NCBI GenBank assembly: GCA_024689005.1
Contig: JAILDU010000041.1
Location: 1-64,000, forward strand
Direction of reading: 5' to 3'
DNA length: 64,000 nt
Origin: Paludibacteraceae bacterium
Lineage (GTDB): Bacteria > Bacteroidota > Bacteroidia > Bacteroidales > Paludibacteraceae
Positions 2,921 through 38,210 of the stretch are shown here, one piece after another. Each line of letters begins with the position of its first letter. Position 1 is the first letter of the stretch. The notes beneath the pieces were generated by a model. The model was not told the DNA's origin and ran no database searches. It saw only the letters and a program-made list of their open reading frames with translations. The position numbers were made by a program, and so were the translations under genes.

Positions 2921-4164
2921 TTACCATAGGAGACGAACTACTTATCGGACAAGTAGTAGACACCAACTCTGCTTGGATGGCAGAACGTCTGAACGAAATT
3001 GGTATCGAACTATACCAGATTACTTCCGTTCATGATACACGCGAACATATTATCGCTGCGCTCAACGAGGCATTCAGTCGTGCAGATATCGTGCTTACCA
3101 CCGGTGGACTCGGTCCCACCAACGATGATATTACTAAGCATGTTCTATGCGAATATTTCGGTACACACCTTGTTGAAGATGAGCAAGTGCGCACGCATAT
3201 TCAACAATTATATAGTGCGCGACCGGATGTGCTCAATAGGCTAACAGCTACACAATGGTTAGTACCACAAGATGCTGTTATTCTGGAGAATAGAGTGGGT
3301 AGTGCACCTCTCATGGTTTTCCAGCATGGCCGGCAATTACTCGCATCAATGCCGGGTGTACCATATGAAATGAAGATTGCTATGGAAGAACAGATTCTTC
3401 CTTACATATGCAATTACGAATTACAAAATAGTATCATTCAAAAGCAGATTATACATCACACGCTGCAAGTTACCGGCATACCGGAATCGGCATTAGCTAT
3501 TCTTCTCGAAGAATACGAGAACCAAAAACCTCAATATATTCGGTTGGCATACCTGCCTAAAGATGGTATCATTCGCCTTCGTCTCTCCTCTTACGGAGAA
3601 GCTGATGAGCAAGAATGCAATCAATGGTTCCAACGTCTCAAAGCATTGGTCACCGATTATCTGATTGCCGACAAAGACGAGCCACTGGAAGTTCTGGTTG
3701 GCAACCGACTCAAACAATTGGGACAAACTATTGCAACCGCTGAATCATGCACCGGAGGCAAATTGGCATCATTGCTCAACAAGCATGCCGGCAGTTCTGC
3801 CTTCTATCTTGGCTCTGTCGTCAGCTATGCCAATAGCGTCAAAACGAATATGCTGAATGTGCCTGAAGAAATGATAGAAAGGTGTGGGGTGGTGAGCGAA
3901 GAAGTAGTCCGACAGATGGCAGATACCATTCGCGCAATAACCGGCGCAGACTATAGTATCGCTACCAGTGGTATTGCAGGACCTGACGGAGGTACAAATG
4001 ACAAACCGGTTGGGACCGTTTGGATTGCTTGGGCTACTCCTAACGACACATTTGCCGAGTGCTTCCATCTTGGGAAACTCAGAGAACAAGTCACCGACAG
4101 AGCATGCATGAAAGCATTAGTCGGACTATTGAAAATACTAAAACAAAATAATAACCAAAAATGA
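2905..4164 (+). CDS. cinA: CinA-family protein (competence/damage-inducible, nicotinamide mononucleotide deamidase domain)
   Basis: MRAEIITIGDELLIGQVVDTNSAWMAERLN...TTGGLGPTNDDITK...TAESCTGG...SGIAGPDGGT; start at ATG 2905 rather than the ORF-track start 2860. Confidence 0.95.
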   Translation: MRAEIITIGDELLIGQVVDTNSAWMAERLNEIGIELYQITSVHDTREHIIAALNEAFSRADIVLTTGGLGPTNDDITKHVLCEYFGTHLVEDEQVRTHIQQLYSARPDVLNRLTATQWLVPQDAVILENRVGSAPLMVFQHGRQLLASMPGVPYEMKIAMEEQILPYICNYELQNSIIQKQIIHHTLQVTGIPESALAILLEEYENQKPQYIRLAYLPKDGIIRLRLSSYGEADEQECNQWFQRLKALVTDYLIADKDEPLEVLVGNRLKQLGQTIATAESCTGGKLASLLNKHAGSSAFYLGSVVSYANSVKTNMLNVPEEMIERCGVVSEEVVRQMADTIRAITGADYSIATSGIAGPDGGTNDKPVGTVWIAWATPNDTFAECFHLGKLREQVTDRACMKALVGLLKILKQNNNQK

Positions 4165-7019
4165 ATTCCATAGAGTCATTTTTGTTCACACCCTCCATCA
4201 CACAGTCTCTCTTATGGCTGACAATGGTGATGACCATAGGACTATGGCTTGGCGAGAAAGCGAAGATCCGACAATTCTCGCTGGGAGTCACATGGGTACT
4301 TTTTGTTGGAATAGCACTCGCTTCTTTGGGCGTGCGCATCGACCATAGTGTGGCACAATTTGCCAAAGATTTTGGACTAATTCTCTTTGTATATTCTATT
4401 GGCTTGCAGGTGGGACCTTCTTTCTCGCCTTTCAAAAGAGGCGGACTGCAACTCAATATGCTATCAGCTGCTATCGTACTGCTTGGTTGCGTCTGCGCCA
4501 TCGCGCTCCACTATATCACTGGCATTGATATGTCCACCATGGCTGGCGTCATGTCCGGCTCTGTCACTTCAACCCCATCTTTAGCAGCTGTTCAGCAGGC
4601 ATATTTTGACCTTACAGGGCATTCCAATCCGGATATTGCTACCGGCTATGCTGTTGCTTATCCGCTTAGTATTGTGGGAGTTATACTTGCTTTTGAACTC
4701 ATTCGTCGCTCATTCAAGATCAGCTTACCTGAAGAAGAAAAACGCTTGCGTATTGAGGCTTCTGCCAAGGACGAAGAACCGATTTGCGTGGATATCAAAC
4801 TCAATAATCCGCAACTGGATGTATTGACTCTCAACGAGTTGAAGCATATATGCCCGGTCAAAGAGATGGTGGTTAGCCGTGTCATTCGTCCCGATGGCTC
4901 AGACGAATTGGTTAGCGAACAGACGACTTTCCGCAACGGAGATACACTACGCATTCTCACCGATAGAAACCATACCGATGCGTTGCGACTGTTAGGACAA
5001 ATGAAGGATTACAATCTCAAAGTACAAAAAGAGAAATCTGATCACCTCATTTCCAGACGTATTGCAGTTACTAAACCGGAATGTAACGGTAAACGAATAC
5101 GTTCGTTCAATTTGCGACAACAATATCATGCAACCATTACACGCGTCAGCCGGGCAGGTATCGATTTGTTAGCCTCACCGGACATGATTCTGCAGTTGGG
5201 CGATCGACTGATGGTCGTTGGAGACAAGACTGATGTTCAGCGCGTAGCTGACACTTTCGGTAATGAGCTGAAACGTTTGGACGTTCCACATCTGCTTCCT
5301 GTCTTTTTTGGCATTGTATTGGGTATATGCGTCGGACTACTGCCTATTCCTCTTCCCGGGTTAGGACAGACTTTCAAGTTGGGATTAGTGGGCGGTTCAC
5401 TCATTGTGGCTATTCTCATTGGTCACTATGGTCCGTACTACAATCTGGTCACATTCTCCACCACTTCTGCCAATATGATGCTACGGCAAGTCGGCCTCAC
5501 ACTTTTCTTGGCAGCTCTTGGACTAAGTGTGGGAGAACAGTTCGTTCCCACATTGCTCAATGGTGGCTACTTATGGATCGGATACGGATTCATCATCACT
5601 ATTATTCCGCTCTTAGTTGTCGGCAGCATCGCATACAAATGGCTGAATGTCAACTATTTCAAAGTCGTTGGTCTGCTTATTGGCTCCATGACTTCGGCTA
5701 TGGCATTGCCTTATGCTCAATCGCTCTCAAGCGAGAACAATCAATCTGCTGTTTGTTACGCTACAGTCTATCCGTTCACCACATTCCTGCGCGTCATGGC
5801 AGGACAGTTATTGGTACTCATCTTTTGCTCGTTCACTACTCCGGACACCACTATCACTCCACAGCTCCTCCCGCCAGCCATCAATACAACTATCGGAGAA
5901 GAGTACGGACCTGTTCTGACTATTGATGACCAAACACTCTTTTTCGTTGGACTCAATCGCGAGGATGGTTCACAGAGCGAAGACATCTATGTCTCTCGCC
6001 GCGATGTACGCACAGGAGAATGGAGTAGCGCCAGACGATTGCCCGATCTGAGTTCTCCTTACCGCAACGAAGCACCCACTTCGCTGAGCGGAGACGGCAG
6101 AACAATGCTACTCTTTGTTGAAGGACGCATGTGCTTCAGCGTCAAGACCCCATATGGTTGGGCAGAACCCAGACCACTGCCGCGATACTTGCAATTAGGC
6201 AACTGGCAAGCCGATGCAATGATTACCGCGGACGGCAAGGCATTGCTTTTTGCAGCTAACTATCCTGCAGAAGGAGAAGAAAAACCTTCTTTGAACATCT
6301 TTGTTAGTGAACGCGACGAGCAAGGACGATGGAAAGAGCCTTACTCTATTGGACCTGCCATCAACACTTCAGGCATGGAGCGCTCTCCGTTCTTGCACCC
6401 GGATATGCACACACTCTATTTCTCTTCCGACCGAGATGGAACCCTCGGAGACTTGGATGTGTGGGTAACGCGTCGCCTCAGTGACACCTGTTGGAACTGT
6501 TGGTCCGAACCGGAGAATATGGGACCTGCTATCAATACCAAAGGACGCGACTGCTGGTACAAGATATCCACAGATGGCAAGACTGCCTATTATGCTCAGA
6601 AGGATGGCAAAAAACATGATATTTATTCAATCGCATTGCCGGAAGACAAACGTCCTCAGAATATTACTGTTCTACAAACTAATACAGCTGTTGCTATCGA
6701 CAATCTGCTTTTCGAAACTGCCAAAGCTATCATACTGCCGTCTTCGCTCCCGGAACTAAAACGTATTGCGGATTTCGTGCAGACATATGGCTACAAAGTG
6801 CGCTTATCAGGTCATACTGATAATGTGGGAAATGCTGATTCCAACAAACAATTATCACAAGAGAGAGCAGAAGCCGTGCGCCAACAACTCATATCCTATG
6901 GTTGTGATCCGCAGACTATCTCCGCGGATGGCTATGGAGATACCAAGCCTGTTGCTCCCAACGACACCGAATCTGGACGTCAGGCCAATCGCCGCGTCGA
7001 AATCACTATCATACCATAA
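4161..7019 (+). CDS. AspT/YidE-like membrane antiporter with RCK_C/TrkA-C domains, fused to a PD40 beta-propeller and a C-terminal OmpA domain
   Basis: Single uninterrupted 952-aa frame. Polytopic N-half with two RCK_C-like segments; C-part has PD40-like strings (GPVLTIDDQTLFFVG, SPFLHPDMHTLYFSSDRDGTLGDLDVWV) and OmpA motif LSGHTDNVGNADSNKQLSQERAEAVRQQL. Confidence 0.85.
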   Translation: MNSIESFLFTPSITQSLLWLTMVMTIGLWLGEKAKIRQFSLGVTWVLFVGIALASLGVRIDHSVAQFAKDFGLILFVYSIGLQVGPSFSPFKRGGLQLNMLSAAIVLLGCVCAIALHYITGIDMSTMAGVMSGSVTSTPSLAAVQQAYFDLTGHSNPDIATGYAVAYPLSIVGVILAFELIRRSFKISLPEEEKRLRIEASAKDEEPICVDIKLNNPQLDVLTLNELKHICPVKEMVVSRVIRPDGSDELVSEQTTFRNGDTLRILTDRNHTDALRLLGQMKDYNLKVQKEKSDHLISRRIAVTKPECNGKRIRSFNLRQQYHATITRVSRAGIDLLASPDMILQLGDRLMVVGDKTDVQRVADTFGNELKRLDVPHLLPVFFGIVLGICVGLLPIPLPGLGQTFKLGLVGGSLIVAILIGHYGPYYNLVTFSTTSANMMLRQVGLTLFLAALGLSVGEQFVPTLLNGGYLWIGYGFIITIIPLLVVGSIAYKWLNVNYFKVVGLLIGSMTSAMALPYAQSLSSENNQSAVCYATVYPFTTFLRVMAGQLLVLIFCSFTTPDTTITPQLLPPAINTTIGEEYGPVLTIDDQTLFFVGLNREDGSQSEDIYVSRRDVRTGEWSSARRLPDLSSPYRNEAPTSLSGDGRTMLLFVEGRMCFSVKTPYGWAEPRPLPRYLQLGNWQADAMITADGKALLFAANYPAEGEEKPSLNIFVSERDEQGRWKEPYSIGPAINTSGMERSPFLHPDMHTLYFSSDRDGTLGDLDVWVTRRLSDTCWNCWSEPENMGPAINTKGRDCWYKISTDGKTAYYAQKDGKKHDIYSIALPEDKRPQNITVLQTNTAVAIDNLLFETAKAIILPSSLPELKRIADFVQTYGYKVRLSGHTDNVGNADSNKQLSQERAEAVRQQLISYGCDPQTISADGYGDTKPVAPNDTESGRQANRRVEITIIP

Positions 7020-7182: not shown

Positions 7183-7771
7183 ATGACCACATTCTACCAC
7201 AATGTCTACGACTACGGTTTCCGCGGCTATTAAGCGACTATCGACCGCTTCACATCGATGGATCCGCTCTGCGAGAAGTACTACCACATCTCTCCTTACG
7301 CCTATGCCGGAAACAACTTTGTGAACTGTATTGACTACATGGGATTAGCAGGTTATGCATTTAATGCAACAACAGGACGGTATGAACGCAAAATAGAAGG
7401 GGACGGCCCAAATTATGGCGTGATTGTTGACGATAATGGTCAACATCTTTCCACATTCGAGTTCGCAGATCCTATCAATGACCCTGAAGCCATTGAGAAA
7501 GAAAAGATTAATCATATACTTTTTGTGAGTGATGAACAAATTGCACGAATACTAGAAGAATCAGGGGTGTACGATACTCAAAATCAAGAAAATAAGTATT
7601 CGTTTATTTACTACCAAAGCGACCTGAGTAGTATTAATGGTGATGGAAAAATGGATTATGTATGCACTGGAATGTATAATGGAGCAAATATTTCATGCTA
7701 CACAAATAGACTCAAAAGACGATCAATTTTCAATTAAATTAGGATACAAATGGCAAAAAGGACAAAAGTAA
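7183..7771 (+). pseudogene. Degraded Rhs C-terminal tip: Rhs core end plus variable toxin-like domain
   Basis: YDYGFRGY*ATIDRFTSMDPLCEKYYHISPYAYAGNNFVNCIDYMGLA; in-frame TAA at 7231-7233; apparent frameshift near 7660-7700, after which frame 2 (IFHATQIDSKDDQFSIKLGYKWQKGQK*) ends at TAA 7769-7771. Confidence 0.75.
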
Positions 7772-8250
7772 TGAAGTATGTGCTACTTTTATTTGTGGCA
7801 TTACTTGGAATTTCTTGTATGCGAAGTAACAAAGAGTATTCTAATATAGAGATGATTGGTCTTGCAGAAACATACAAGAAACTATTTGACGATCAATATA
7901 TCCTCCAGATAGAATCGCACTCTGATCATGCGTATTATATTTGTACATATAGGGATACATCAATATATATCGTTACTTACGATAGCAAAGTAATTAGAGG
8001 AACCGGATATAATCGGACAATTATTTCGAGTAACGCGAAAGACGACCCGAACTTGCCTATTCGTTTTCAGGAATTGCTATCTGTTGTACAAAGTATATAC
8101 TCGCATGAGATAAGGTATGTTTCTGTTAAGTCTGATTCTATCCGCCTTGAAAGGTTTGATGGATATTATTTGAGCAATATAAAGCCATATGACTGTAGCG
8201 CATTTGAGGTAGTCCAAAACAAATGGTATATTAGGCCGAAGGACAAATAG
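7771..8250 (+). CDS. Lipoprotein, putative immunity protein of the Rhs-tip cassette
   Basis: MKYVLLLFVALLGISCMRSNKE lipobox; ATG at 7771 overlaps the TAA of the frame-2 toxin tail (TAATG). Confidence 0.6.
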   Translation: MKYVLLLFVALLGISCMRSNKEYSNIEMIGLAETYKKLFDDQYILQIESHSDHAYYICTYRDTSIYIVTYDSKVIRGTGYNRTIISSNAKDDPNLPIRFQELLSVVQSIYSHEIRYVSVKSDSIRLERFDGYYLSNIKPYDCSAFEVVQNKWYIRPKDK

Positions 8251-8446: not shown

Positions 8447-8673
8447 GATTTGATCCTTTTGGACCATTTGGGATATATAAAATATCGTCAAATATTGGTA
8501 ATATTGACCTTACCATCAATTTTTGAATCATTTTTGATAATTTTGGACAAATATAAAGTATCAAGCACAGGTATTACAAAATATTTGAGAGCTTATTATA
8601 TTCGTTAGAGTTGTAATACTACCGGTTTTTTGTTCTCCAATCTTTTCTGCAACAACTTTATTAAACTACAGAC

Positions 8674-8708
8674 AAAAAAGAATAGAGCAACCAGATTCTG
8701 GTTACTCT
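8674..8708 (-). terminator. Intrinsic terminator of the small minus-strand gene
   Basis: Minus strand AGAGTAACCAGAATCTGGTTGCTCT followed by ATTCTTTTTTG. Confidence 0.7.
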
Positions 8709-8766
8709 AAACATTAATTGGGAAGTAGAATAAAAAACAATCTGCCAAATTATCCACCTCTTAATA

Positions 8767-8907
8767 CTAATGTTTGTGCAATCTAAAATACAAACCGCAA
8801 TGCGAGCCTGTACAATAATCAAAATGGGGACGTGGATCGTCCTCCGCCAATAGGCTCAAGACTTTTTCTTTAACGTGCGTAAGTAATATGGAAATCTTAT
8901 CTATCAT
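8767..8907 (-). CDS. Small hypothetical protein, 46 aa, absent from the supplied ORF track
   Basis: MIDKISILLTHVKEKVLSLLAEDDPRPHFDYCTGSHCGLYFRLHKH*; flanked by a TTG-N20-TACCTTTG-type promoter and an intrinsic terminator on the same strand. Confidence 0.5.
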   Translation of the reverse strand: MIDKISILLTHVKEKVLSLLAEDDPRPHFDYCTGSHCGLYFRLHKH

Positions 8908-8966
8908 AAAACAATAGTTAAGGTTTAGGAAGGTGTTTATTCGAAATACTAATTAAAAAAGTACTG

Positions 8967-8998
8967 CAAAGGTACAATATTTTTGTGAACAATGCAAG
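8967..8998 (-). promoter_or_regulatory. Bacteroidota-type promoter for the 46-aa gene
   Basis: Minus strand CTTG-N20-TACCTTTG (-7 at 8974-8967, -33 at 8998-8995). Confidence 0.65.
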
Positions 8999-9565
8999 AA
9001 AAAAATGTGAATTTTATGAACAATAAATGTGAACATACTGATTTATAACTATATTCACAATTGTGATATTCACAAATGACATCGCGTCTATAAAAATAAA
9101 GGATCTATAAGCAAATATTCACAGAAAAGAGTGGAGTAGTACTCTACTTTCCTAATACCCAGCATGTACATATAGATAAATGTTCCACGCACATGCATAT
9201 TTTTATTATTTTAATGTCTATTTTCCTTAATATCAGCATATATGCGACTTATATAAACTAACACTTAAAGCATTTATTAAAAATAACATCAGGACTGTTA
9301 ACATATGTGAATAAATAGTTATACATATAAGCATATTTGCTCAAAATGAGGGTATTACAAGTATTATTTGGAGCGCAACATAGGTATTATGACGGTATTA
9401 TAGCGCATTTAAGCCGTGCTTTTGGCTATCTCATCATCTTTAACTCTCACATTTGTATAAATTCATACACATTCACAATTGTGTACACATATATTTCTAC
9501 TAAGTGTTCACATATGCAAACGCATTTGTAAAATAAAAATGTGCAAACATTTGTGTATTTCACAT
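8984..9565. promoter_or_regulatory. Cluster of TTCACA/TGTGAA sites, including two perfect CACAATTGTG palindromes
   Basis: TTCACA/TGTGAA near 8984, 9006, 9029, 9054, 9070, 9118, 9305, 9472, 9507, 9560; CACAATTGTG at 9056-9065 and 9474-9483. Confidence 0.6.
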
Positions 9566-9581
9566 TTATTTTGTATCTTTG
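9550..9581 (+). promoter_or_regulatory. Promoter of XRE regulator gene
   Basis: TTTG-N20-TATCTTTG. Confidence 0.7.
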
Positions 9582-9632: not shown

Positions 9633-10040
9633 ATGAATGAAAGAGAACGCATAGAGCGCTTAATTGCTACACTAAAACTTTCTGCAAGGCAGTTTGCAGA
9701 ACAGATTCACGTGCAGCCTGGAACTATCAGTAATATGATGAGCGGGCGCAACAATCCCAGTCTGGACGTTATGAAGCGTATCATGCAGCGCTATCCAACA
9801 CTCAATCCCGAATGGCTTATTGTTGGCAAAGGAGAGATGTGGCGCACTGTACCAGGACAAGAAGCAGGACTCTTTGATGTTCTTCCGCCGGATCCCAAAG
9901 AAGAAACTACGCGGATAATTGACCGCCAACCATCTTACAAACAAGAGGAGCCGCAAGTCATTGCAGCTCCACAAAAACAGATTCGTAATATCGTCATCTA
10001 TTATACAGATGGTACGTACGAAGAATTCTCCAAGGCTTAA
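9633..10040 (+). CDS. XRE-family helix-turn-helix transcriptional regulator
   Basis: LKLSARQFAEQIHVQPGTISNMMSGRNNPSLDVMKRIMQRYPTLNPEWLIVGKGEMW: HTH_3 domain plus LNPEWLI.GkGeM tail. Confidence 0.92.
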   Translation: MNERERIERLIATLKLSARQFAEQIHVQPGTISNMMSGRNNPSLDVMKRIMQRYPTLNPEWLIVGKGEMWRTVPGQEAGLFDVLPPDPKEETTRIIDRQPSYKQEEPQVIAAPQKQIRNIVIYYTDGTYEEFSKA

Positions 10041-10070: not shown

Positions 10071-10106
10071 ATTAGAACAAGTGTTTATTGCAACGCTTGT
10101 TCTAAT
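10071..10106. terminator. Stem-loop between the convergent XRE gene and lon, overlapping the lon stop codon
   Basis: ATTAGAACAAG-N14-CTTGTTCTAAT, 11-bp perfect arms; no strong T-tract. Confidence 0.4.
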
Positions 10107-12466
10107 ACTTCGCTTATGTCGTGCACATAGTGCAAATTTAAGCCCTTGAGATAAATATCAGCTATCTCCATCACGTCTTTTCTATTATCTTCACACAGGA
10201 TGATGTCTGTTATGCCTGCACGCTTGGCTGCGAGCAGTTTTTCTTTCACTCCGCCTATAGGCAGTACTTTCCCGCGCAGAGTCATCTCGCCTGTCATGGC
10301 TATACGTGGCTTCACCAGGCGTTTGGTAAACGCACTAACCAGCGCCGTCGTCATGGTGATTCCGGCCGACGGGCCATCCTTGGGTATTGCTCCCTCCGGC
10401 ACATGGATATGTACTGCTGTCTTCTCAAATATCTCCGGTTTGATTCCTAATTGCTTGGCATGAGCCTTCACATATCCCAATGCTAAAGTGGCCGACTCCT
10501 TCATCACATCGCCTAAGTTACCTGTCAGAGTCAGACTGGGAGCCTTTGCTGACGATAGACTCGTCTCGATAAACAAAATCTCACCACCCACTTGTGTCCA
10601 TGCCAAACCCGTTACTACACCCACATATTTGTTCGTTTCCCAGGCATCACGGTTATAGCGTGGCTGGCCGAGATAACTACGCAAATCCTCCAGTGTCACC
10701 GATATATTGTACTCTTCGCCCAAAGCCAAACGCGTATCCACTTTACGGCATATAGTTGCTATTTGTCGCTCCAGACTACGCACTCCTGATTCACGAGTAT
10801 AGTCATCTATAATATGATTTAGAATCTCTTTCTTTAGCTTCAGTTGCGATGCTTTTAGACCATGTGCAGATAACTCTTTAGGAAGCAGATGGCGTTTGGC
10901 TATCTCTGCTTTTTCTTCTTGCAGATAACCGGTCATTTCTATCAATTCCATTCTGTCCAACAGCGGACGAGGTATAGTATCCAGACTGTTTGCTGTTGCT
11001 ATAAATAGAACGTGACTCAAATCATAGTCCACATCCAAGTAATTATCATGGAACGAACTATTCTGTTCTGGATCAAGTACTTCCAGCAATGCCGATGTCG
11101 GATCGCCCTTGTAGTCTGCTCCTATCTTATCCACTTCATCCAGCACAAATACCGGATTAGATGTGCCGCTTTTCTTCAGGTTGTCTATGATACGTCCGGG
11201 CAGCGCACCGATGTATGTTCTGCGGTGTCCACGTATCTCTGCTTCGTCGTGCAATCCACCTAACGAAATACGTGCATATTTGCGGCCAAGTGCCTCTGCA
11301 ACGCTCTTTCCTAAACTTGTTTTGCCCACCCCCGGAGGGCCGTATAGACATAGGATAGGGGACTTTATTGGATTGTTTTCCTTCTCTTTTTTGCTGCGAA
11401 GTGATAGTTGACGTTGTACGGCGAGGTATTCGACAATTCTTTCTTTCACTTTGTCCAACCCATAGTGGTCACGATCAAGTACCTCTTGAGCGTGTTTCAT
11501 GTCATAGTTATCCTCAGAATAAATGCCCCATGGCAACTCCAACATCAACTCCAAATAGTCGAGTTGGGTGGAGTAATCTGGTGAGTGTGTCGGCATATGC
11601 TCCAACCGTTGCACTTCCTTCTTGAATACTTCTGCCACCGACTGTGACCATTGTTTGGTAGCCGCGCGTTCTCGCAGGTTTTTCAGAGTCTGAGCCCCCG
11701 TATCGGTGTCGCCCAAATCCTTTTTGATGGTCTCTATTTCTTGTTGCAAAAAATAGTCTCGTTGCTGTTTGTCCATCTTCTCGGCCGTACGGCGGCGAAT
11801 ATCTTCCTTTATGTTTTGGATCTCATTCTCTTTCTCAAGAGCGGTCAACACATTGGACGCGCGCTCCATCAAGGAATTGATATTCAGCAACTCTTGCTTG
11901 TATTCCGTGCTGAAATGATATATGGCGCACACATAGTTGACCAACGATGGGGTACTATTGACGCTTCTTATCGTCATTTGTGCATCTACAGCCGGATTCT
12001 CTTTGTTTCCAAGTAGTTTCAGCGCTACATCACGTATCGAATCTGCCAAGGCAGCAAACTGCTTGTCACCGGTTAATGGCATTTCTTCGTCACAAACCTT
12101 AATACTGCCTGACAGGCGACTTCCCGATTCCTTCTGCACTTCTACCAATTGCACACGGTGTATACCTTCAAATATCGCAAATACCGCGTCTTCTCCCATT
12201 TCCGGCACAGGCACTATCTGTAGCACGCGTGCTATTGTTCCCATCGAGTACAAATCGCCTTCTCCTGTTGGTTCTACCACAGAATCATCTATCTGAGTCA
12301 TCACAACCAACAGCTCCTTATTCTTATGCGCTGCCTTTACCAATTTAAGACTATTTGCACGTGACACAGCAATAGGCATCATTATACCGGGAAAGAGCAC
12401 AGTGTTCTTTACCGGTAGCACATTGTACCATCCTTCTTCTATTTCCTTTATATCTTTCTTACTCAT
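10085..12466 (-). CDS. lon: ATP-dependent endopeptidase Lon
   Basis: GPPGVGKTSLGKSVAEALGRKYARISLGG; GPSAGITMTTALVSAFT; PIGGVKEKLLAAKRAGI. Confidence 0.98.
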   Translation of the reverse strand: MSKKDIKEIEEGWYNVLPVKNTVLFPGIMMPIAVSRANSLKLVKAAHKNKELLVVMTQIDDSVVEPTGEGDLYSMGTIARVLQIVPVPEMGEDAVFAIFEGIHRVQLVEVQKESGSRLSGSIKVCDEEMPLTGDKQFAALADSIRDVALKLLGNKENPAVDAQMTIRSVNSTPSLVNYVCAIYHFSTEYKQELLNINSLMERASNVLTALEKENEIQNIKEDIRRRTAEKMDKQQRDYFLQQEIETIKKDLGDTDTGAQTLKNLRERAATKQWSQSVAEVFKKEVQRLEHMPTHSPDYSTQLDYLELMLELPWGIYSEDNYDMKHAQEVLDRDHYGLDKVKERIVEYLAVQRQLSLRSKKEKENNPIKSPILCLYGPPGVGKTSLGKSVAEALGRKYARISLGGLHDEAEIRGHRRTYIGALPGRIIDNLKKSGTSNPVFVLDEVDKIGADYKGDPTSALLEVLDPEQNSSFHDNYLDVDYDLSHVLFIATANSLDTIPRPLLDRMELIEMTGYLQEEKAEIAKRHLLPKELSAHGLKASQLKLKKEILNHIIDDYTRESGVRSLERQIATICRKVDTRLALGEEYNISVTLEDLRSYLGQPRYNRDAWETNKYVGVVTGLAWTQVGGEILFIETSLSSAKAPSLTLTGNLGDVMKESATLALGYVKAHAKQLGIKPEIFEKTAVHIHVPEGAIPKDGPSAGITMTTALVSAFTKRLVKPRIAMTGEMTLRGKVLPIGGVKEKLLAAKRAGITDIILCEDNRKDVMEIADIYLKGLNLHYVHDISEVLEQALQ

Positions 12467-35544: not shown

Positions 35545-36381
35545 ATGGCAATAGTAAACAACACAGACTACTCAATCAAGCACGGCAAACTCAACAAAAA
35601 GGACAACGTCATCCACCGCGTTCGTAACGGCAAGGAACACATGTACAGCATTGTTGAGCCATACCAAGGCCCGGCATCCAAAGCGCAAAAAGACCACCGT
35701 TCACTCTTCGGAAAGGTCAACTCTATCGTCAATCATATCATGGCCGACCCCGAACAGTTGGTTGAGTGGAAAGCACGAATGGACCAGTACAACCGTTCTC
35801 TTAACGTTTGCCAACCGCCGTTCCCTAAACGATTCAAAACCATCAGACAATATGTCTTTTCCGTCGTTAGCGAGCAATACAAAAAACTAATGGCGAACCG
35901 GCACAATGACACCGACCAACCGACCACTTTACCGCACGACATCACCCTGCACATCGCGCCTTTCATAGACCTTTCTGCCTCTGACATATACGAGATCCTC
36001 AAAGCCAGATACGCTGTCTTCACATTAGAGCAACATATCATCTATCCAGACGAAGACAATATCGATTATGTCGCCACACACATCTCCCTGCGCAGAAACG
36101 GTCTGGTTATTGCCTATGCGCGACTCTTCCCCGAAGCGGAAAAAGAAGTCATGCGTATCGGACGAATGTTGACCCTCACTGCCGAACGAGGCAAGGGTTT
36201 GGGCTGTTATCTCATGAATCAAGTCATATTCGAAGCACAACGACAAGGGGCTGCAAAAATACGATTACACGCACAAACTCATGCCGTGCCGTTCTACCAA
36301 CGATTCGGTTTCCAACCGGTTGGCGATACTTTTTACGAAGCAGACATCCCTCATCTCTGCATGGAAAAGGTGCTCTCATAA
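35545..36381 (+). CDS. Two-domain protein: small basic N-terminal domain fused to an ElaA-like GNAT acetyltransferase
   Basis: C-terminal EILKARYAVFTLEQHIIYPDEDNID...IGRMLTLTAERGKGLGCYLMNQVI...HAQTHAVPFYQRFGFQPVGDTFYEADIPHLCMEK; N-terminal domain aligns with the 25897 protein. Confidence 0.8.
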   Translation: MAIVNNTDYSIKHGKLNKKDNVIHRVRNGKEHMYSIVEPYQGPASKAQKDHRSLFGKVNSIVNHIMADPEQLVEWKARMDQYNRSLNVCQPPFPKRFKTIRQYVFSVVSEQYKKLMANRHNDTDQPTTLPHDITLHIAPFIDLSASDIYEILKARYAVFTLEQHIIYPDEDNIDYVATHISLRRNGLVIAYARLFPEAEKEVMRIGRMLTLTAERGKGLGCYLMNQVIFEAQRQGAAKIRLHAQTHAVPFYQRFGFQPVGDTFYEADIPHLCMEKVLS

Positions 36382-36526
36382 TAGTAAAAGACACATTTTT
36401 TATGACACATTACTGCCAATTTGGCAGATTATGCACTTTTAGAACGTTTACATTTGCATAAACAAAAAAATAGTAGTAACTTTGCGCACACTTTGTCAAA
36501 CTACATCATTTAAACTTTAAATCGTA

Positions 36527-37810
36527 ATGAACAATCTATCTAAGTTTACTGCCGTTGCTTTCGCTGCAATCTCCTTAGCCGGCTGCCAAAAAAACGTCTT
36601 GGAAACCGCCGATTTGCGTCTCTTCGACTTGAGAGGCGATGTGAAAAACGTCAAGACATTCTGTATTACTAATGTTTCCGAATTGGGAGAATTGACCGAT
36701 GAATCTGAACGTTTTCTGGCGGAAGAATGCAATTATGACGAGAATGGACAACTCATTTTCTTTATCGAGAATGATGGAGATACTGCCGCTATCACTCGCA
36801 ACGAAGCAGGACTAATCATCTCACTCTCTGTTGATTGTGAGGACGATGCGGGCATCTACAACGAGTGGGGATTTGTTCGTTCTTACAAGTGGAATGACCT
36901 CGAGCGCTTAACGGAGAAATCTTACTCTAAGTGTGGACAGGAGATCGAAGAGAACAGAATCCTCTTCTACAATGCAGATGGCCAAAACACTCGAGATTCC
37001 GTCATTTACCACGACGTTACACCTTGGTACAGCCTTACAGAATATTCTGTCTTGAAGTCCGATAAATATGGCAACTGGACCAAGCGCCTTGTTTCCACGG
37101 AATCCTATATGCTCCAAGGAAATGATATGAACTACGCTATCGAAGAGCGCGAAATCATCTATCAATCTGACAAACAACCGAAGCCGCAAACGCAATCCGA
37201 GCAAATTCCGGTCGTTGCAGAAACACAGATCGTTTATACAGACTTACTTCTATGCAATTTAACCGGCAAAGTACAGAACGTCAAGACTTTCCGCACACTC
37301 GATGTAGACGCACAGGGCAATACTACTCCGCTCTCTTCACGTTTTCCGGAAGCTACATATACATTCGATGAGGATGGTCTACTCCTTTCGCGCGTTGAAA
37401 GAGATAGCGCCGTCATCACACGCGACGCTAACGGACACATCATTTCTTTCGCTGTCGAATGTGGCAAAGGATATGACGAAGTTGATGACGTGTACGAGGA
37501 CGAAGGTTTTGAACTCGGATTCACTTGGTCTAACAGCGGCAAACCCATAGGAGAAGAATACAACGATTGCATTGGACACCACCACAAGAGAACTTATACA
37601 TTTGACGTGGACGGACAAATCATCGGTTCTACCGGCACTTGCTCTGGTGAAGGCGAGGAATGGGAACAGAACATCAAATATACCATCTTAACTTCTGACC
37701 AACAGGGCAATTGGACCAAACGTGTACTTACCAAAGAAAACAAACGCGCAGAAAACTCCGTTAGATACGCGTTTGAATTGGAAGAACGCGATATCACATA
37801 TTTTGAGTAA
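36527..37810 (+). CDS. Secreted/lipoprotein-like hypothetical protein with internal duplication
   Basis: AAISLAGCQKN lipobox-like; two ~200-aa homologous halves. Confidence 0.7.
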   Translation: MNNLSKFTAVAFAAISLAGCQKNVLETADLRLFDLRGDVKNVKTFCITNVSELGELTDESERFLAEECNYDENGQLIFFIENDGDTAAITRNEAGLIISLSVDCEDDAGIYNEWGFVRSYKWNDLERLTEKSYSKCGQEIEENRILFYNADGQNTRDSVIYHDVTPWYSLTEYSVLKSDKYGNWTKRLVSTESYMLQGNDMNYAIEEREIIYQSDKQPKPQTQSEQIPVVAETQIVYTDLLLCNLTGKVQNVKTFRTLDVDAQGNTTPLSSRFPEATYTFDEDGLLLSRVERDSAVITRDANGHIISFAVECGKGYDEVDDVYEDEGFELGFTWSNSGKPIGEEYNDCIGHHHKRTYTFDVDGQIIGSTGTCSGEGEEWEQNIKYTILTSDQQGNWTKRVLTKENKRAENSVRYAFELEERDITYFE

Positions 37811-37934
37811 TACCAACTCTTTCATATACTGACAATTTGTCAGTTAGCAACTCATTGGCACAAATATTGTCAATGAGTTGTTGGATTCTTATGGAACCCG
37901 CTATTATAATAAGGATTTAAAAACTACAAATACT

Positions 37935-38210
37935 ATGAGTAAGATTCAACCATTAGCAGACCGCGTGCTTATCAAGCCTGCGGCCGCAGAAGAAAAAACA
38001 GTCGGAGGAATCATCATTCCTGACAGCGCAAAAGAAAAACCGCTGCGCGGCGAAGTTCTCGCTGCTGGCGAAGGTACCAAAGACGAGACTATGATTCTCA
38101 AAGCCGGAGACCAGGTTTTGTACGGCAAGTACGCAGGCACAGAACTCGAACTTGACGGCGAGAAATATCTCATTATGCGTCAATCTGACGTTTTGGCTAT
38201 CATTAAATAA
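37935..38210 (+). CDS. groES: Co-chaperonin GroES
   Basis: [47 protein letters not shown]; start ATG 37935. Confidence 0.97.

Follow-up and report, generated by a model that had tools for sequence, protein, structure and literature searches.

The stretch of DNA analyzed here (the window; 64,000 nucleotides of a Paludibacteraceae bacterium) carries a 46-codon ORF on its minus strand (8770–8907). The ORF begins with an ATG at 8907 and ends at a TAG (8769–8767). Upstream is a predicted promoter of the Bacteroidota type, TTG-N20-TACCTTTG (8967–8997, minus strand), which agrees with the consensus described for Bacteroides, i.e. TAnnTTTG at −7 and TTTG near −33 (PMC7366714); the exact 31-mer occurs only once in the window. 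The start codon lies 59 nt downstream of the −7 box, leaving a 5ʹ UTR that spans 8908–8966 (minus strand). Transcription is predicted to end at an intrinsic terminator (8673–8709, minus strand), in which a 12-pair hairpin (8709–8683) is followed by the T-tract TTCTTTTTTG. A strong terminator marks the window copy and, as judged by eye, some relatives. The resulting 298-nt transcript folds better than 200 out of 200 shuffled sequences (z = −3.7). The initial annotation had described promoter, ORF and terminator as one minus-strand unit; we located all three where it had placed them, and its 46-aa translation matches ours letter for letter.

Divergent from the microprotein gene, ~730 bp away, is a gene encoding an XRE-family regulator (9633–10040, plus strand). 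In the protein, a linker connects an HTH_3 domain to a conserved C-terminal stretch, IVIYYTDGTYEEF. The Pfam match places it within the HTH_3 family (7e-8; 32.8 bits against a cut-off of 23), and neither Pfam nor the alignment of orthologues shows a sensor domain. Reading of the sequence suggests a promoter for the XRE gene at 9550–9581 (plus strand), TTTG-N20-TATCTTTG, with TTTCACA inside its spacer; this arrangement is conserved in orthologues. The lon protease gene (10085–12466, minus strand), recognized from Pfam and synteny, is convergent with the XRE gene and is a conserved neighbor.

Ten TTCACA/TGTGAA boxes lie between the divergent promoters (8984–9564; starts at 8984, 9006, 9028, 9054, 9069, 9118, 9306, 9472, 9507 and 9559). 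This corresponds to ten boxes in a 725 bp spacer; outside it, the window has 0.38 boxes per kb, and no other stretch attains four boxes in 725 bp. Across 32 orthologous spacers there are 177 boxes, compared with 22.5 in shuffled sequences (z = 37), while control words give z-scores of −2 to 0.3. Hence, the operator-like cluster suspected at the outset is real. One box (8984–8989, minus strand) falls within the spacer of the microprotein promoter itself. A box between −33 and −7 is found in 42 of 46 orthologous microprotein promoters, the remaining four lacking an exact copy, but in none of the 17 other promoter-like sites of the window. In the genome from which the window derives, the boxed promoter pattern occurs exactly once; four sites differ from it by one mismatch, and all four have TTCAAA rather than TTCACA. 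A scan for further box clusters covered 400 kb from a relative. The top two by size proved to be simple tandem arrays of a heptamer, and those ranking third and fourth consist of boxes dispersed within coding sequence, so that nothing else in those 400 kb compares with the XRE locus.

The spacer has other features. Between 9010 and 9550 there are further blocks conserved across about 30 species, including CGTGGAACATTTT, which is half of a parS-like palindrome, two direct repeats of roughly 40 bp that start with ACTTTAAGTAA, and ACTACTCTACTCTTTT. Neither strand of the spacer has a notable consensus fold, which argues against a conserved RNA. A replication origin or terminus was also considered and rejected, since GC skew in 400 kb of a relative does not switch at the locus. 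In the window, a clearly negative GC skew gives way to values near or above zero at 36000–38000.

Is the 46-codon ORF a genuine gene? A tblastn search with the single sequence over 178 genomes of the genus (from Paludibacteraceae of gut and rumen, all draft MAGs) yielded only weak matches; these were resolved through synteny and a profile, since ORFs of equal size and with the same type of tail were found upstream of XRE orthologues. A profile built from 13 members matched 48 genomes at E ≤ 0.01, one of which (G113) was set aside as a chance match. Thus, 47 of the 178 genomes, including that of the window, carry the microprotein gene, each in one copy. The family comprises 44 distinct peptides, mostly 45–51 aa long. 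For close pairs, dN/dS is mostly 0.05–0.3, indicating purifying selection, and the distance from promoter to ORF is alike in relatives (mostly 50–70 nt). Between species, DNA similarity was undetected outside the promoter, yet peptide similarity was detected. In keeping with this, a DNA-level search with the whole unit matched elsewhere only in the promoter, because promoters of this genus are generically similar (TTGCATAT, TCAAAAAAA and TACCTTTG). The initial annotation had made its gene call dependent on amino acid-level conservation among homologues. That conservation exists, and the claim of an unlisted gene with its own transcription unit holds. By these comparative measures, the ORF is protein-coding and under selection at the protein level.

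The distribution of the family is narrow. In an order-wide sample of 393 genomes there was no convincing match other than in the window's own genome. Matches outside the genus had E-values of 1e-4 to 0.1; the five best that were examined fall within long frames, seemingly antisense to other genes, and we attribute them to chance. IMG/VR and a phage collection contained no match to the microprotein, a plasmid collection contained only chance matches, and it belongs to no family of Pfam, NCBIfam or PHROGs. We therefore regard the microprotein, on the basis of these searches, as a new small-protein family of one genus, which may already stand unannotated in smORF catalogues. Like the microbiome smORF families of GMSC (PMC11364881), it has fewer than 100 codons and is overlooked by standard annotation; the regulatory tie to an XRE gene is what the present analysis adds.

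Members of the family share a layout of an N-terminal helix (...QDFVLRLFVES), a linker of variable length in which Ser, Thr and Pro are abundant, and a C-terminal tail (Y-x-T-C-x-H-C-G-T-x-x-R-L-H) that is conserved and ends at the stop codon. Residues 2–21 of the window member are predicted to be helical (pLDDT of 81–87 by block), and confidence in the prediction is low for the C-terminal half (pLDDT of 57–68). Conservation is highest at L17, R18, L19, F20, G38, T39 and R42 (numbered as in the window member, with the letters of the family), and G38 is invariant in all 47 members. The window member is among the more divergent in the N-terminal half, where S18 and L20 replace R and F. The protein is probably cytosolic.

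The association with the XRE gene extends to relatives. In 29 of 30 loci the XRE gene is divergent from the microprotein gene at about 700–800 bp, the remaining locus stopping at a contig edge, and lon is convergent past the XRE gene in nearly all of the 29. The tie of the microprotein gene to both the regulator gene and the box cluster, and the synteny that had been proposed as a check, are borne out; within one genus, such synteny could partly reflect plain inheritance. The association is not reciprocal. Of 40 XRE loci with sufficient upstream sequence, 32 carry the microprotein gene, while about ten close relatives and a whole sister clade have the XRE gene and boxes without it; a search of the sister XRE clades found no microprotein. 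Mapped on the XRE tree, presence of the microprotein requires about eight changes, and the sister clade lacks it throughout, a pattern consistent with one gain and several losses. The XRE gene does not depend on the microprotein, which seems to have disappeared on several occasions from loci that kept the XRE gene and boxes.

The far side of the microprotein gene is variable: ispE lies within 400 bp downstream in 15 of 32 loci, and the rest have other contexts. In two relatives (loci L169 and L188) the microprotein ORF is gone, but its promoter and 5ʹ UTR are kept and run directly into a gene that we name ispE from its sequence. We take this arrangement to be an example of promoter capture. 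In the window, two ORFs (7258–8250) flank the microprotein gene on this side. One matches RHS-core weakly at its N-terminus, and the other encodes a small lipoprotein-like protein that was not found beside the microprotein gene in the relatives tested. Beyond them, at 4161–7019, is a gene for a 952-aa protein in which PD40 repeats and an OmpA domain are joined to an AspT-type permease (Asp-Al_Ex, TrkA_C); an inner-membrane transporter and envelope-anchoring domains make an unusual pairing.

What binds the boxes? XRE orthologues without the microprotein, including those of a more distant clade of the same genus, have three to seven boxes per 600 bp upstream, whereas the more distant XRE homologues of Bacteroidaceae have zero to two. 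Because the boxes stay with the XRE gene in genomes that lack the microprotein, the XRE protein is the likely binder, with TTTGTGAA/TTCACAAA as the candidate bound DNA, and the microprotein is likely to be a later output of the XRE switch. Given the position of the box inside the microprotein promoter spacer, repression is likelier than activation. Repeated upstream boxes that include the regulator's own promoter are as expected for an XRE-family autoregulator of the HTH_3 type (PF01381); the 730-bp box-filled spacer and the partner microprotein go beyond the definition of that family.

We propose that the 46-codon ORF is a genuine microprotein gene that forms the output half of a two-gene switch with the XRE regulator, a reading to which we assign a probability of roughly 0.7. 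In this model, the XRE protein would bind the boxes, repress its own gene and block the microprotein promoter, and a fall in XRE levels or binding would allow microprotein synthesis; we consider this step probable. With somewhat less confidence, we suggest that the microprotein would act by protein-protein contact, the helix QDFVLRLFVES and the tail CGTxxRLH serving as two surfaces on a flexible Ser/Pro linker. The XRE protein itself is one candidate partner, albeit a doubtful one, and another protein of the cell is equally likely or likelier.

The most serious alternative is that the microprotein is a feedback effector, binding the XRE protein as an antirepressor or co-repressor. This would resemble the modules described in prophages, in which the divergent partner of a transcription factor gene encodes a small protein that lacks homologues or predictable domains (TF-smORF modules; Silpe et al. 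2023, PMC10432266). In those phage-borne modules, the transcription factor switches on the smORF, whose product in turn inactivates a cI repressor (PMC10432266). The pair described here likewise consists of a transcription factor gene and a divergent small-protein gene. The two are strictly co-localized, the boxes are common to both promoters, and an XRE protein with no visible sensor domain of its own would fit regulation by a partner. Unlike the prophage modules, the pair is chromosomal, beside lon and with RuvX and peptide deformylase among its neighbors, no cI-type target for the microprotein was seen, and the placement of the box in the promoter spacer favors repression. Furthermore, the existence of the XRE gene and boxes without the microprotein, in about ten close relatives and the sister clade, implies that the regulator works without it. 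We therefore think feedback improbable, at perhaps one chance in several, and favor an accessory output, because the microprotein has been repeatedly lost while the XRE gene was retained. More speculative still is a closed chromosomal switch of gut Bacteroidales in which the XRE protein regulates essentially one target, and helix-linker-tail microproteins feed back on the regulator, as a non-phage counterpart of TF-smORF modules.

A second alternative is that the microprotein is exported or modified, either as a RiPP precursor with a leader helix and a core tail, as the initial annotation had proposed, or as a pheromone with an active conserved tail. The two-part anatomy, the variable linker and the conservation of the C-terminal stretch up to the stop codon are compatible with this. 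In contrast, a signal peptide is not apparent in the sequence, and the N-terminal helix is as conserved as the tail. It is the linker that varies, whereas the tail is conserved across species, contrary to the proposed leader-core organization. The ten neighboring window proteins that were scanned, which include RuvX, peptide deformylase, MntP, a DUF3109 protein, the AspT-type permease, Lon, a nitroreductase and an acyltransferase, comprise no radical SAM enzyme, cyclase or peptidase-transporter; the neighbors in relatives are lon and, often, ispE. In addition, 13 members of the family matched none of the RiPP precursor families of NCBIfam. A RiPP enzyme could be encoded at a distance from the locus, but overall we judge an exported or modified peptide unlikely.

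The proximity of ispE raises the possibility of a leader peptide, whose translation would control the downstream gene. Consistent with this are the 15 loci with ispE close downstream, and the two relatives in which the microprotein promoter and 5ʹ UTR lead directly to ispE. However, the remaining loci have other downstream contexts, many loci show a promoter-like sequence of ispE's own, and in the window a strong terminator comes after the ORF and the gene that follows lies on the opposite strand. A leader peptide is therefore very improbable.

Slightly less credible is a small metal-binding protein, the other function initially suggested. The tail is rich in Cys and His, and single members match zinc-ribbon models weakly, but these matches are non-significant and confined to those members. 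No set of Cys/His ligands is conserved: CxxC occurs in 15 of 47 tails, 18 members have a single Cys, the cysteines move among three positions, and each of these is replaceable, the main ones by V, A, G, S or N. Shifting cysteines make a fixed metal site unlikely. Least probable of all is a non-coding small RNA with a chance ORF, to which the well-folded 298-nt transcript and its terminator might point, but codon-level purifying selection and conservation of amino acids over divergent DNA stand against it, and a 47-member family with such dN/dS values refutes a small RNA as the sole function.

What began as an ORF below the annotation cut-off thus turns out to represent a family of 47 small proteins, for which promoter and box are defined and a likely regulator can be named. 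The plainest account of the output switch that we propose is that an older, box-rich promoter region acquired a lineage-specific microprotein gene, which was then lost repeatedly, its promoter passing to ispE in some species after the loss. If the microprotein instead feeds back on the XRE protein, then TF-smORF switches would occur in bacterial chromosomes outside phages.
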